Assembly (NCBI RefSeq): GCF_003416765.1
Contig: NZ_QSNG01000001.1
Coordinates: forward strand, 1,018,742-1,082,741
Direction: 5' to 3'
Origin: Paratractidigestivibacter faecalis
GTDB lineage: Bacteria; Actinomycetota; Coriobacteriia; Coriobacteriales; Atopobiaceae
DNA length: 64,000 nt
The notes under the pieces are model-generated. The model was not told the DNA's origin and ran no database searches. It worked only from the letters and a program-made list of their open reading frames with translations. Positions 30,815 to 53,426 of the stretch are shown here, piece after piece; positions within the stretch are counted from its first letter, which is position 1; each line of letters starts with the position of its first letter. The translations under genes and the position numbers were made by a program.

Positions 30815-31060
30815 CAGAATCGCGATTTGGGTTCGAGGTGCCGGGGCGCTCGCAAGGGCGTCCCGGCATTTTTGCTGGCCAGAGCCTAGGGACGTACAAG
30901 GCAAGCCGAGAAGTGCGCGGGGCCCGAACCCAATTCGCATCCCCAATTGGGTTCGCAGGAGCGCGAACTTCTCGCCATGCCGGGACGAGGCGATTGTGTT
31001 ACCTGCGGTTTCTCCGGCGGGCCCGGAGCGGTATCGTAAACCGCGAACCCAAAACGCAAC
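30815..31060. repeat. Intergenic palindrome cluster with TTGGGTTCG words
   Basis: The 303-nt gap after metG holds no gene. Its centre, 30900-30981, is a long imperfect inverted repeat. GGCAAGCCGAGAAG pairs loosely with CTTCTCGCCATGCC, and the inner CGAACCCAATT / AATTGGGTTCG arms are perfect with a 9-nt loop. Further copies of the word occur at about 30824 (TTTGGGTTCG) and inverted near 31044 (CGAACCCAAA). Confidence 0.65.
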
Positions 31061-40048: not shown

Positions 40049-40148
40049 GAGCCGGATAACGCGGCGGTTGGCAGCAAATCAGTGCCAACGTCCGCAATTG
40101 AAGGCTCTTTGGCGACAATTCCGTGCCAACTGCCGCATTTCTCGGCTC
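40049..40148. repeat. Composite palindromic element, three-word copy
   Basis: 25-nt words at 40049 (direct), 40083 and 40124 (inverted) fit GAGCC-N7-GCGGC-N-G-N-TGGCA. The spacing of 34 and 41 nt and the 9-nt centre are identical to the 141-bp elements at 41442-41582 and 51229-51369; the first direct word is absent. Confidence 0.85.
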
Positions 40149-40330: not shown

Positions 40331-41425
40331 ATGACGATTCTTCTCTCACATACCAGCGCGCTCGAAGCCCTTCGCAGGCTCGGCTGCATCCGGCAGGAGC
40401 CCATCGGCGCCGACGCAGTCGCCCTCGATTGCGCCCCCGACGCCTCGAGGGCGGCCGCCCTGTGGGAATCGGCCTTGCCGGGCACGCCCCAGGCGCCGTT
40501 GCACGTGCAGGTTCCGCAGGGTTCCCCGCGCAGGAGAGGAGGCGCCCTGGTGACGCACCCCATGGGGGAGCCGCCGACAGGCGAGGTTCTCTCGCTTTGC
40601 AAGGGACTCGCCTGCCCCACGCCCTCGCAGCTCCTCGTGCAGCTGGAGCCCCGTCTCACCCGACTCGAGCTGCTGACGCTCATGGAGGAGCTCATGGGAA
40701 CCTACGCGGTGCGACCGGACGCGCCGCGAGGCATGGTCGCCAGGCCATCTCCCCTGCTCGCGCCCGAGGAGCTGGAGACGCGCCTGGGACTGGCTGGTAG
40801 CGCGACCAACCACAGGAAGCTCCGCTGGGCGCTCGACAGGGTCGTCCCCGGGTCCGCCTCCCCAAGGGAGTCCAAGCTTGTTCTTCGCCTTTCGCTGCAG
40901 GCGTCGCTCGGGGGTTACGGGCTGGCGGTCGCCGGGCTCAACCAGGGGCTGGCGGTCGCAGGCATCGCCAGCGGAGAAGGGCGCATGCGCAGGCCCGACG
41001 TGCTTCTCGCCAGGCCGGGACACGCGGGAGGCGACAGACTGGTGGCGCTCGAATACGACGGCGACGTCCACCTCGACGAGGAGCGTCACGCCGAGGACCT
41101 GCGCAGGACCAACGAGCTCGCGGCCGCAGGCATAGCCGAGTACCGGGTCGACAAGGCCCTCTACAAGAACCTCGGCTACATGGACTCTCTGGTGGAGCAA
41201 ATACGAGCCGAGCTCGGCATGCCCAGAGAGCACCTCTCGAGACGCCAGCGGGAGCAGCGGCGCAAGCTGAGACTGGAGCTCTTTGACGAGCTGGAGGAGA
41301 TTGACGGCGTGACCTGGGACGGACGAGCCCGCGAAAGGGACAGGCGCAAGGCTGGCGTCAGCGCAACGCCGCCGCAAGACCCCGTCGAAGGAGACGCCGT
41401 GCCCTTGGAGGCGTACGGCGTCTAG
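40331..41425 (+). CDS. Orphan protein with a DUF559/Vsr-like nuclease segment
   Basis: The protein is 364 residues with no family I can name with confidence. The C-terminal third reads RPDVLLARPG, LVALEYDGDVHLDEERHAEDL and then GIAEYRVDKAL. The E-x-DG-x-x-H pattern followed by a helical stretch and a strand resembles the PD-(D/E)XK-like DUF559/Vsr endonuclease fold. The N-terminal part (SHTSALEALRRL; SQLLVQLEPRLTRLELLTLMEELMG) is helical and may be regulatory or DNA-binding. It stands alone between two composite palindromes and looks like an accessory or transferred gene. The ATG at 40331 lacks a strong Shine-Dalgarno. Confidence 0.6.
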   Translation: MTILLSHTSALEALRRLGCIRQEPIGADAVALDCAPDASRAAALWESALPGTPQAPLHVQVPQGSPRRRGGALVTHPMGEPPTGEVLSLCKGLACPTPSQLLVQLEPRLTRLELLTLMEELMGTYAVRPDAPRGMVARPSPLLAPEELETRLGLAGSATNHRKLRWALDRVVPGSASPRESKLVLRLSLQASLGGYGLAVAGLNQGLAVAGIASGEGRMRRPDVLLARPGHAGGDRLVALEYDGDVHLDEERHAEDLRRTNELAAAGIAEYRVDKALYKNLGYMDSLVEQIRAELGMPREHLSRRQREQRRKLRLELFDELEEIDGVTWDGRARERDRRKAGVSATPPQDPVEGDAVPLEAYGV

Positions 41426-41441
41426 CGCGCCCGATGAGACG

Positions 41442-41582
41442 GAGCCGAGAACTGCTGCCGGTGGCACGAAGATGCCTCTCCAGAGCCTAAAAAAGCGGCC
41501 GTTGGCAGGAAATCCCTGCCAACGGCCGCAAAATCAGGCACCAGGGCCGTCGGATTGTGCCAACGGCCGCAAAATCAGGCTC
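41442..41582. repeat. Composite palindromic element, full 141-bp copy
   Basis: Four 25-nt words, direct at 41442 and 41483 and inverted at 41517 and 41558, fit GAGCC-N7-GC-N-GCCG-N-TGGCA, with spacing 41, 34 and 41 nt. The middle two words form a hairpin with a 9-nt loop. It begins 17 nt after the orphan gene and ends 24 nt before the stop of the convergent ABC gene. Confidence 0.88.
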
Positions 41583-48529: not shown

Positions 48530-48581
48530 CCAAAGTGAACGGGGGTGAGTGGCACGTGCCACTCACCCCCGTTCACTTTGG
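48530..48581. repeat. 52-bp perfect palindrome after serC
   Basis: Twenty-six bases on each side of the centre (CACGTG, between 48555 and 48556) are exact complements with no loop. The arm starts CCAAAGTGAACGGGGG. It begins 17 nt after the serC stop. No T-run follows, so it is not a classical terminator. The sequence is not repeated elsewhere in the window. Confidence 0.85.
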
Positions 48582-51228: not shown

Positions 51229-51369
51229 GAGCCGAGAAACGCGGCCGATGGCACGCCCGCGCCCCGTACGAGCCTCGGAATGCGGCCGATGGCAGCCAAA
51301 CCCTGCCATCGGCCGCAATTCTCGGCTCATGGGGCGTCGCCGCGTGCCAACCGCCGCACTTCTCGGCCC
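51229..51369. repeat. Composite palindromic element, full 141-bp copy
   Basis: Words fitting GAGCC-N7-GCGGC-N-G-N-TGGCA begin at 51229 and 51270 (direct) and at 51304 and 51345 (inverted), with the same 41/34/41 spacing and 9-nt centre as at 41442. The last word directly abuts the stop codon of the NAD-synthetase-like gene. Confidence 0.9.
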
Positions 51370-53232
51370 CTAGTTCTCGGAGAAGGGGCCGTTCCAGAGG
51401 CCGCCGCCGGGGCGCGAGGGACCGGAGCCGTGCCTGTCAGAGGCGTCCTGCCCGGAGGCGCCCGCCTGCGGGCCAGGCTCCCCTCCGCCCAGGCTGAGCC
51501 CGCCGCCCAGGGACACGTCGCGGAGAAGCCCCAGGAGCTCGTGGGCGTCCTGGGGAAGCCCTCCCTGCCCCGCGGGGGCAGCCTGCGCGGCCGGGGCCTG
51601 GCGCTTCTCGTCGCTGCCCTCGCGGTCGAAGGCGGCAAGCGTGGCTTCCAGGCGCTCCTCGTGCGGACGCACCCGGTCGGACCAGGCCAGGCCCAGCGGG
51701 CTCCTCACCTCATCCAGGAGCTTGGAGGACATCATGAGCACGGGCGGGGCGGCGCGCCTTGCCCAGGAGAGCGCCCTCACGCGCGCGAGGATGGCGCAGA
51801 CGGCCTCCTCGTGGCCGCGGGCCTCCACGATGTCGCTCACGGGCAGCTCCCACTCAACGTAGCTGGCAAGCACGTAGTCCGCAAACTCCAGGCGCGTCTC
51901 GGAGGAGTGCCCGCACGCGGCAAGGCCGGGCAGGTCGGGCAGGTCGTAGGCCATGCGTGCCGCGGCCGGGATGACGGGAGAGACCGTGTTTCTCATGTGC
52001 GCGAAGGCGAGCACGTCGGAGCGGTAGACGTCGCCCAGCGGGGCCAGGGCTCCGGCGTCAAGCCCACGCGGCCCCTCCAGCGCGAGGCCGGTCTTGTCGC
52101 GGGACGAGAGCGCGACGCCGCCCACCTCGCGTGCCAGGGCCGCAAGGTGGGCCTGCGCCACGTCCGCGCGCAGGAGCGGGTCCCCCTCGCTGGGCGCAGA
52201 AGGGCACTCGCGGGTGTCCACGCGCAGGTTCCGGCAGAGGTCGCGGGCAGCGGACAGAGCAACGGGGCCCAGGTCGGGGGCTATAAGCGCGTGCACGTGC
52301 GTGGGACCGAGGGCATCGGTGGCAAGGGCCGCCAGGACGCTCGAGCCCAGGCGTCCGTCGGCGAGAAGCGCCACGTCGGAGGCCCCCAGCTGCGAGCAGG
52401 TCTGCCCGAGGCCCAGCGTGAGCGCGCCCCAGGAAGCGGCGCCGCGGTCGAAGACCTCGGGCGTGAGCGCGTGCGGCAGCGGCCCCTCGGAGGCGGGGTC
52501 CACGTCGCAGACGAGCAGGGCCTCCTCCAGGGCCTGCGCCTGCGCGGCCACCTCTCCCCAGGGGGCCAGCACGAAGCTCGAGCCCGTGAACGTCTCTGCG
52601 TCGTAGCAGCCGAGCGAGCCCACGCCGCAGATCCAGGCGCCGGTGGCGCGCGCGTCCGCCAGGAAGCGGGAGTCCGCCAGGGCCGGGCCCAGCGCGGAGG
52701 AGGCGTCGTCCATGGAGAAGCCATAGGTGGAGAGGTAGAGGATGACGTTGACGTCGTAGTCGCACTCGTCGTAGTCATCGAGGTCGTCGTAGCTGCAGGC
52801 AATGCCCAGACGGGCACCCGCGAGCTCCACCTCGGGCAGCGCGCGCGACGAGGCCGCGCGACGACGGGCGGGCACGGGAGAGTCGGCCGCCACGGCGTCC
52901 TCTAGGAAGGCGGAGAGGCGCAGGGGCCTCACGTCGCCGTCGACGACGAGCATGGCCTCGGGCGTGGGCGTGCCGTCCACGTCGGCCGTGGCGGGGACCA
53001 GGCAGGGGCAGGCGAGCCGCTCGGTCAGGCCCGAGAGCGTCTCGGCCAGGTCGAGGAGGAACCCCTCGCGGTCCACGTAGGGCACCCCCGCCGCGCCGGA
53101 GAGCACGTTCATGGGAAAGACCAGCAGGTCGACGCCCTGGTCGGCGGCACGGCGGGAGTAGGCCGCCATGCGGTCCGCGGTAGTGGCAAAGTCCCCCGCG
53201 AGGCTCCCCAGTTGCGCGATGCCCAGTCTCAT
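51370..53232 (-). CDS. Degenerate glutamine-dependent NAD(+) synthetase homologue
   Basis: This 620-residue protein follows the NadE layout: a nitrilase-like glutaminase domain (MRLGIAQLGSLAGDF... to about 270), then an adenine-nucleotide alpha-hydrolase-like synthetase domain. Key residues are missing. The nitrilase Glu position reads VFPMNVLSG instead of FPE, the Lys region reads RPLRLSAFLED, and only a Cys remains in GIACSYDDLDD. The synthetase P-loop SGGxDSS is replaced by ALLADGRLGSSVLAALATDALG. The final 60 residues are Gly/Gln/Pro-rich. It is probably not a working NAD synthetase; a regulatory or new role is possible. The ATG at 53232 has AAGGAG within a 29-bp inverted repeat. Confidence 0.8.
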   Translation of the reverse strand: MRLGIAQLGSLAGDFATTADRMAAYSRRAADQGVDLLVFPMNVLSGAAGVPYVDREGFLLDLAETLSGLTERLACPCLVPATADVDGTPTPEAMLVVDGDVRPLRLSAFLEDAVAADSPVPARRRAASSRALPEVELAGARLGIACSYDDLDDYDECDYDVNVILYLSTYGFSMDDASSALGPALADSRFLADARATGAWICGVGSLGCYDAETFTGSSFVLAPWGEVAAQAQALEEALLVCDVDPASEGPLPHALTPEVFDRGAASWGALTLGLGQTCSQLGASDVALLADGRLGSSVLAALATDALGPTHVHALIAPDLGPVALSAARDLCRNLRVDTRECPSAPSEGDPLLRADVAQAHLAALAREVGGVALSSRDKTGLALEGPRGLDAGALAPLGDVYRSDVLAFAHMRNTVSPVIPAAARMAYDLPDLPGLAACGHSSETRLEFADYVLASYVEWELPVSDIVEARGHEEAVCAILARVRALSWARRAAPPVLMMSSKLLDEVRSPLGLAWSDRVRPHEERLEATLAAFDREGSDEKRQAPAAQAAPAGQGGLPQDAHELLGLLRDVSLGGGLSLGGGEPGPQAGASGQDASDRHGSGPSRPGGGLWNGPFSEN

Positions 53233-53426
53233 GTGACGCTCCTTGTCCGTGGTCGGTCGTTTGAGTATACGGCGAGAAGTGCGCTCATGCCCGACCCGGG
53301 GCAGCCCGACACATCCCCTATGGCGCAAAGCTACGCTGCGCAAAGAGCTTTGCCGCCATAGGGGATGTGTCGGGCACGCTGCGGCGGCGTCATCCCAGAC
53401 CACGGACAAGGAGCGTCACATGAGAC
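53226..53426. repeat. 29-bp perfect inverted repeats carrying a start region
   Basis: 53226-53254 and 53398-53426 are exact complements and contain the ribosome-binding site and ATG of the NAD-synthetase-like gene (minus). The plus-strand copy holds the same AAGGAG and ATG but leads into unrelated sequence. The 143-nt middle contains a further palindrome and no gene. It may be an invertible segment or the scar of an inverted duplication. Confidence 0.8.
53304..53375. repeat. 29/30-bp inverted repeat within the larger repeat
   Basis: The arm at 53304-53332 (starting GCCCGACACATCCCC) pairs with 53346-53375 with one bulged base and a 13-nt loop. It has the same style as the other intergenic hairpins but its own sequence. 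Confidence 0.75.

Follow-up and report, generated by a model that had tools for sequence, protein, structure and literature searches.

Helically phased arrays of 25-nt words beside genes for putative nuclease-fold proteins in Coriobacteriia

Introduction

The closest described counterpart of the locus analyzed here is the RAYT/REP system, in which a RAYT gene lies between two REPs, and gene and repeats coevolve (PMC2817692). A further point of comparison is provided by REPINs, doublets in inverted arrangement whose spacers are less conserved and which show compensatory changes (PMC3116915).

In the present work we analyzed a 64-kb window (the whole stretch of 64,000 nucleotides), in which a sequence-only reading had noticed a 141-bp palindromic element built from 25-nt words, and had proposed that it could be a non-autonomous mobile repeat, a protein-binding array or a structured RNA. 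As in the RAYT arrangement, two such elements enclose a gene.

Results

Repeat elements in the window

The word GAGCC-N7-GCGGCCG-N-TGGCA, with 0–2 mismatches, was found four times at 41442, four times at 51229 and three times at 40049 (Table 1). The previously claimed order of direct, direct, inverted and inverted words, with starts 41, 34 and 41 nt apart, is exact at both 41442 and 51229, and the element at 40049 keeps three words with 34/41 spacing exactly as had been described. The description of these as the same word holds within 0–2 mismatches, but the copies are not all identical: those of the 40049 element carry one mismatch each, and word 51345(-) starts with GGGCC and has GCGGCGG. 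Similarly, the spacers are mostly not conserved, as first noted, with the exception of a 37-nt spacer in related species that has a motif of its own. The centre of the first element (41483–41541) scored 66.9 bits with R1, a covariance model of the 59-nt element centre that was run over 140 family genomes, and the second complete element abuts the stop codon of a minus-strand ORF (51370–53409).

In shuffled windows (n = 3) the best match, on one strand, had at least 3 mismatches, and a search of the whole genome with up to 2 mismatches gave 31 word matches versus 2 with a reversed control; chance is thus excluded for the words in the window. An Rfam search of the window identified only tRNAs, and the element matches no described RNA family. 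Separately, a long, almost perfect hairpin (GTGAACGGGGGTGAGTGGCACGTGCCACTCACCCCCGTTCAC) lies at 48533–48578, near two tRNA genes, and its match to R1 is weak.

Table 1. Coordinates of the elements, words and candidate gene within the window
Feature	Position	Strand	Basis and remarks
Outer left word	41442–41466	+	GAGCCGAGAACTGCTGCCGGTGGCA; carries GCTGCCG
Inner left word	41483–41507	+	GAGCCTAAAAAAGCGGCCGTTGGCA
Inner right word, inverted	41517–41541	-	Starts GTGCC; 9-nt gap to inner left word
Outer right word, inverted	41558–41582	-	Word match
Second complete element	51229–51369		Words 51229(+), 51270(+), 51304(-), 51345(-); R1 66.7 bits
Three-word element	40049–40148		Words 40049(+), 40083(-), 40124(-); R1 55.8 bits
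Candidate cognate protein gene	40331–41425 (ORF 40331–41422)	+	364 aa; bracketed by 40049–40148 and 41442–41582
CGAACCCAAANCG copy	30823–30835	-	Word of paralogue C1:392880-393842
Second CGAACCCAAANCG copy	31044–31056	+	Word of paralogue C1:392880-393842

Distribution of the elements

The genome search revealed another perfect 41/34/41 element at C1:1174302-1174442 and partial elements near C1 positions 686860, 1659705, 1667395, 436419 and 620042, bringing the source genome to about 12 element loci. In some of these genomic elements the word takes a second form, about GAGCCACGGATTGCGGGGTTTGGCA, and the outer spacing there is 51 rather than 41. Ten loci were found in the sister species G001; they share the 41-nt step and the 9-nt centre but use a different word (CGTTGCGNAAANNNNNCTGATGGCA). 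R1 identified relatives in 32 of the 140 family genomes, with up to 37 matches per genome when both strands are counted, and the dispersed copies amount to about 10–20 loci per genome. Species-specific words include CGTTGCGGAATCTGGGGTCGTGGCA, TGTCCTGAAAATCGGGGCCGTGGCA, TGTTCCCAAAATCGAGGCTGTGGCA, CTGCGCGAAATCCCGACCTATGGCA, TGCACACAAATTCGGGGCGTCGGCA and others; all species' words are 25 nt long and have TGGCA, or a sequence close to it, at their inner end. None of the listed words has a GTAG/GGAG-type head, and no single-word hairpin is apparent by inspection. Thus, searching the genome and its relatives with word and spacing yielded neither chance copies only nor a spacing that varies freely. 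An exact-pattern scan of a genome contig collection returned 61 stretches, with 0 from Coriobacteriia, which were taken as chance, and searches of viral contigs gave 4 chance matches in one case and otherwise none.

The 37-nt spacer (L222-L277) contains a conserved motif, roughly CNNCTGNGGTTYTTCTCG, that is independent of the species' word, and a similar motif is present in the flanking repeats of paralogues L141 and L295. A second factor, shared in common, may bind at this motif. An exact 15-mer of this long-spacer motif is too strict as a probe.

Helical phasing of the spacings

The spacings, taken from about 85 elements, fall on discrete values of 41, 51, 62, 82 and 103 nt. The set comprises 89 candidate inner pairs found by script, a handful of which are chance, and provided 123 outer-to-inner spacings, distributed as 41 (51 times), 62/63 (38 times), 103 (14 times), 51 (7 times) and a few others. 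The best period is 10.36 bp, with a vector length of 0.954, and random draws of five distinct values fitted equally well in 0.035% of cases. The spacings correspond to 4, 5, 6, 8 and 10 turns, and the inverted inner pair to about 3.4 turns or one more, its gap being 9 or 10 nt and, in a few cases, 19 or 20. Elements of related species are non-independent, yet the same steps recur in species with unrelated words. Given this quantisation, in steps of approximately 10.4 bp, the array follows the geometry of the DNA helix, which strongly favours the original proposal of a protein-binding array phased at helical turns; whole-turn spacing is what proteins lying side by side on one face of double-stranded DNA would require.

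Symmetry of the element centre

The centre comprises 25 pairs, and when 148 distinct matches were aligned, 92.8% of the cells at these pairs held standard base pairs, versus 69.1% when shuffled and 35–46% when slid; double changes are present at 22 of the 25 pairs. The size of this effect is inflated, because the alignment was fitted to the structure and because many palindromes contribute both of their strands as separate rows. Words of G001 that were found by sequence alone offer a separate check: their variable middle matches in 9/9 inner pairs, as compared to 4/11 outer-inner pairs and 3/36 pairs taken from different elements. This agrees with the covariation, and therefore indicates that the symmetry of the centre is kept. 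It could arise from symmetric binding, from hairpin formation or from mutation that perfects palindromes.

A gene enclosed by two elements

The ORF between the 40049 and 41442 elements, which is absent from the sequence-only reading, is, judging from sequence comparisons, part of the same system. In four other genomes, two elements located 1.3–1.5 kb apart bracket a relative that is 39–42% identical. A profile of the five proteins (A2), searched over 140 genomes, revealed further relatives. In other genomes, each of the 14 tested homologues that scored above 500 bits has R1 elements next to it (one more match above this score, G112 C4, is excluded from the 14), on both sides in 12 and with the second side cut by a contig edge in the remaining 2. 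At lower scores, homologues from other genera (G020 and G024) have R1 elements on both sides, and 13 further homologue loci have no R1 match. In the best-sampled genus, R1 elements occur in 13/14 genomes that have a homologue above 500 bits versus 6/17 that do not (Fisher p = 0.002), the 500-bit line having been set after the scores were seen.

Elements are also present in three genomes of this genus that have no homologue above 400 bits (G113, G121 and G126). In G126, which is without a close orthologue, the elements at L268-L270 carry the word TGCACACAAATTCGGGGCGTCGGCA, and no partner gene was found for them. The G001 orthologue (L137; G001:C54:171658-175293) lies at the same locus, where it is broken up over two frames and has no elements on its flanks; this species nonetheless keeps its ten dispersed elements, whose word is a different one. 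The distance between words correlates with that between proteins (Mantel r 0.585, p 0.0001), a relationship that is confounded by species descent. A RAYT was rejected as the partner, since the two Y1 genes of the genome sit beside other repeats.

Sequence features of the protein

All Pfam matches of the window protein fall below cut-off. They include one to MTES_1575 (E 0.026), a restriction-endonuclease-like family that four of five orthologues match weakly, and a weak one to AbiEi_4 (E 0.029); the paralogue L143 passes the cut-off for DUF559 (26.4 bits, cut-off 20.6). Residues E180, D223, Y242, G244, H247 and R259 are kept in 16/16 orthologues and 9/9 paralogues, and position 241 is E in 16/16 orthologues and E or D in 9/9 paralogues. 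The resulting signature, SP-x-E180, D223, E/D241-Y-x-G-x-x-H247 and R259, follows the order expected of a PD-(D/E)XK enzyme, and the C-terminal half of the 364-aa protein is predicted to be PD-(D/E)XK/DUF559-like.

Relatives of the protein occur in 242 of the 299 genomes of the order, and none was detected on plasmids or phages. A PDB profile search with the protein returned nothing, PHROGs gave weak matches only, and PADLOC gave nothing for the window protein and weak mREase_II matches in two distant relatives. A single-sequence AlphaFold model of the window protein was unusable (pLDDT 36).

Paralogues and their words

A repeat common to both flanks (at least 18/20 identical) is present at 15 of 20 paralogue loci, versus 3/80 mismatched pairs; the 20 loci include the 13 R1-negative homologue loci mentioned above, minus one on a short contig. 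These flanking repeats differ from one paralogue to the next. The word of the paralogue at C1:392880-393842, CGAACCCAAANCG, has 36 exact copies in the genome versus 0 for the reversed control, with spacings of 91, 101–102, 111–112, 108–109 and 119–120, about one turn apart. Distant relatives from other families have shared flanking repeats in only 2 of 20 cases, and therefore the arrangement is documented for the family and not for the order. Two of these distant relatives, L345 and L350, have 20/20 identical repeats in both flanks.

Rearrangements at the elements

Signs of REARRANGEMENT comprise a duplicate pair, an in-place inversion, word gain or loss, the orientation or absence of the cassette, and differing gene loci. 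Two elements of the source genome share spacers and words and differ outside, one border being located exactly at a word. At an orthologous locus in G111 (L222) and G118 (L247), the middle of the element has flipped in place, with inverted words on either side, and at L249/L238 only one of the species has a particular outer word with its surroundings. The orientation of the gene varies at one chromosomal locus: it is forward in G129, G112, G117 and G132 but reversed in their relatives G123, G130 and G127, and the same flanks in G113 enclose a single element and no gene; in other species the gene is found at other loci. The element ends are inverted words, which were compared with the terminal inverted repeats of a MITE/DDE transposon, and neither the G000 duplicate pair nor, by inspection, other elements showed a target-site duplication.

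The in-place inversion, the outer-word difference and the reversal or absence of the gene could be explained by ordinary homologous recombination between repeats. Dispersal of the gene and its elements needs more than this. The suggestion of a non-autonomous mobile repeat is thus borne out in part, by the dispersed copies, a duplicate pair of recent origin, the in-place inversion and the bracketed gene; comparison of syntenic loci provided the occupied and single-element states, but no target duplication.

Discussion

We consider it probable that the locus combines a nuclease-fold protein with dedicated, helically phased arrays of its sites. Phasing, linkage and the existence of a separate word per paralogue strongly suggest that the 364-aa protein binds the words, while the same protein may perhaps nick or cut the array, with repair or recombination spreading, inverting or removing the elements and the cassette. 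Each 25-nt word would be the site for one dedicated protein, and words on one face of the helix would allow several copies to assemble side by side, facing across the centre. The product of ORF 40331–41422, like its orthologues elsewhere, would be the reader of its own flanking element; protein and word change together across species, and paralogues have unrelated words of their own. A nuclease-type site could then nick or cut within the array, and repair against another copy could spread, invert or remove the element and gene cassette, the elements serving as landing pads. More tentatively, and with rather more doubt than confidence, this could be extended to Coriobacteriia, which would harbour an expanded nuclease-fold family with orthogonal words. 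Each protein would assemble on its phased arrays and nick or cut them, and the arrays would be landing pads for gene cassettes and additional arrays copied either way, forming a diversifying group of homing-like selfish elements unrelated to RAYT.

The main rival to the nuclease reading is a regulator that merely binds: a cooperative, sequence-specific transcription factor that would autoregulate through the arrays adjoining its gene and control other genes through the dispersed arrays, any nuclease activity having been lost. Cooperative operators typically show phasing and inverted symmetry, and the weak AbiEi_4 match points in the same direction. However, arrays lie downstream as well as upstream of the gene, and the gaps that hold elements are convergent in 31 cases, tandem in 33 and divergent in 12. 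The median distance of the elements is 76 bp from gene ends but 178 bp from gene starts; these positional figures depend on gene calls from a simple script. Since the acidic residues of catalytic type are also invariant, we regard a regulator as unlikely.

Phased arrays at about 10–20 intergenic loci per genome, with a mild convergent bias, could also be expected of a chromosome-organising site (macrodomain, insulator or loop anchor) for a nucleoid protein whose gene is kept beside its sites. However, related species have entirely different words, a single genome can contain several unrelated word families, and many relatives are without any R1-type elements; these observations make an essential organiser unlikely, and we give the organising role in general very little weight.

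A structured RNA or bidirectional terminator, with the inner pair selected as an RNA hairpin, would account for the covariation of the inner helix and for the contrast between inner and outer pairs in G001. The outer single words have no adjacent partner, however, and the spacings shift by whole DNA turns; one element (L001) adjoins an ordinary terminator-like hairpin, Rfam offers no match, and perfect inner pairing could also result from template switching during replication or from symmetric protein binding. The nested hairpins proposed at the outset are thus matched by a covarying inner pair but are not needed, as the phasing points to double-stranded DNA, and an RNA seems highly improbable. 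Finally, the genome encodes two RAYT-like Y1 transposases (Y1_Tnp genes at C1:1567688-1568017 and C1:695484-695816; L134 and L135), but that the elements are ordinary REP/BIME repeats mobilised by these enzymes is scarcely credible despite a bracketing that corresponds to the RAYT layout (PMC2817692), as both Y1 genes adjoin GGGGACG/GGGACAG repeats and not the 25-nt word, the words have neither a GTAG/GGAG head nor a hairpin of their own, and the bracketed gene is not a Y1 transposase.

If a nuclease-fold protein indeed reads these arrays, the system would be a second, independently evolved counterpart of RAYT/REP, with phased double-stranded sites and a restriction-enzyme-like protein, and would give a testable role to a large uncharacterised protein family that is widespread in the order. 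The many natural pairs in which word and protein vary jointly would also be convenient material for studying how such a protein recognises DNA, and could possibly yield new tools for sequence-specific DNA cutting or recombination.

Comparison with known systems

The likeness to RAYT/REP lies in a gene that has a copy of its own extragenic palindromic repeat on either side (in the window and at 14/16 orthologue loci, with one side in the 2 at contig ends), in a dispersed extragenic repeat that is tied to the presence of the gene, and in a protein and repeat that change together, with several independent pairs per genome possible. The systems differ in that the protein here is predicted to be PD-(D/E)XK/DUF559-like and has no match to Y1_Tnp (PF01797, HUH), and in that the repeats are arrays of 25-nt words at whole-turn spacings, whereas a REP is a 20–40 nt hairpin with a GTAG/GGAG-type head; copy number, at about 10–20 loci, is also below the >100 usual for REPs. 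With REPINs and BIMEs (PMC3116915), the elements share extragenic inverted doublets, conserved words, less conserved spacers of fixed length and compensatory changes, but they combine direct and inverted words, have spacing steps of ~10.4 bp and are associated with another partner protein.

Homing endonuclease genes offer a further parallel, in that a nuclease-fold gene lies within DNA resembling its probable target and the site can be occupied or empty (as in G113); here, however, complete arrays lie on both sides, the sites are dispersed in one genome and not allelic, and cleavage is a putative activity. In being intergenic imperfect palindromes of about 130–150 bp the elements resemble those of ERIC type, but they have in common only words and spacing, with no sequence shared over the whole element, and a cognate gene exists. 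The earlier remark that no described family with this plan was known to its author agrees with searches of the open-access literature, which provided no description of such repeats in Coriobacteriia. The kinds of protein and repeat thus appear to be new, and their organisation has a known analogue in RAYT/REP.
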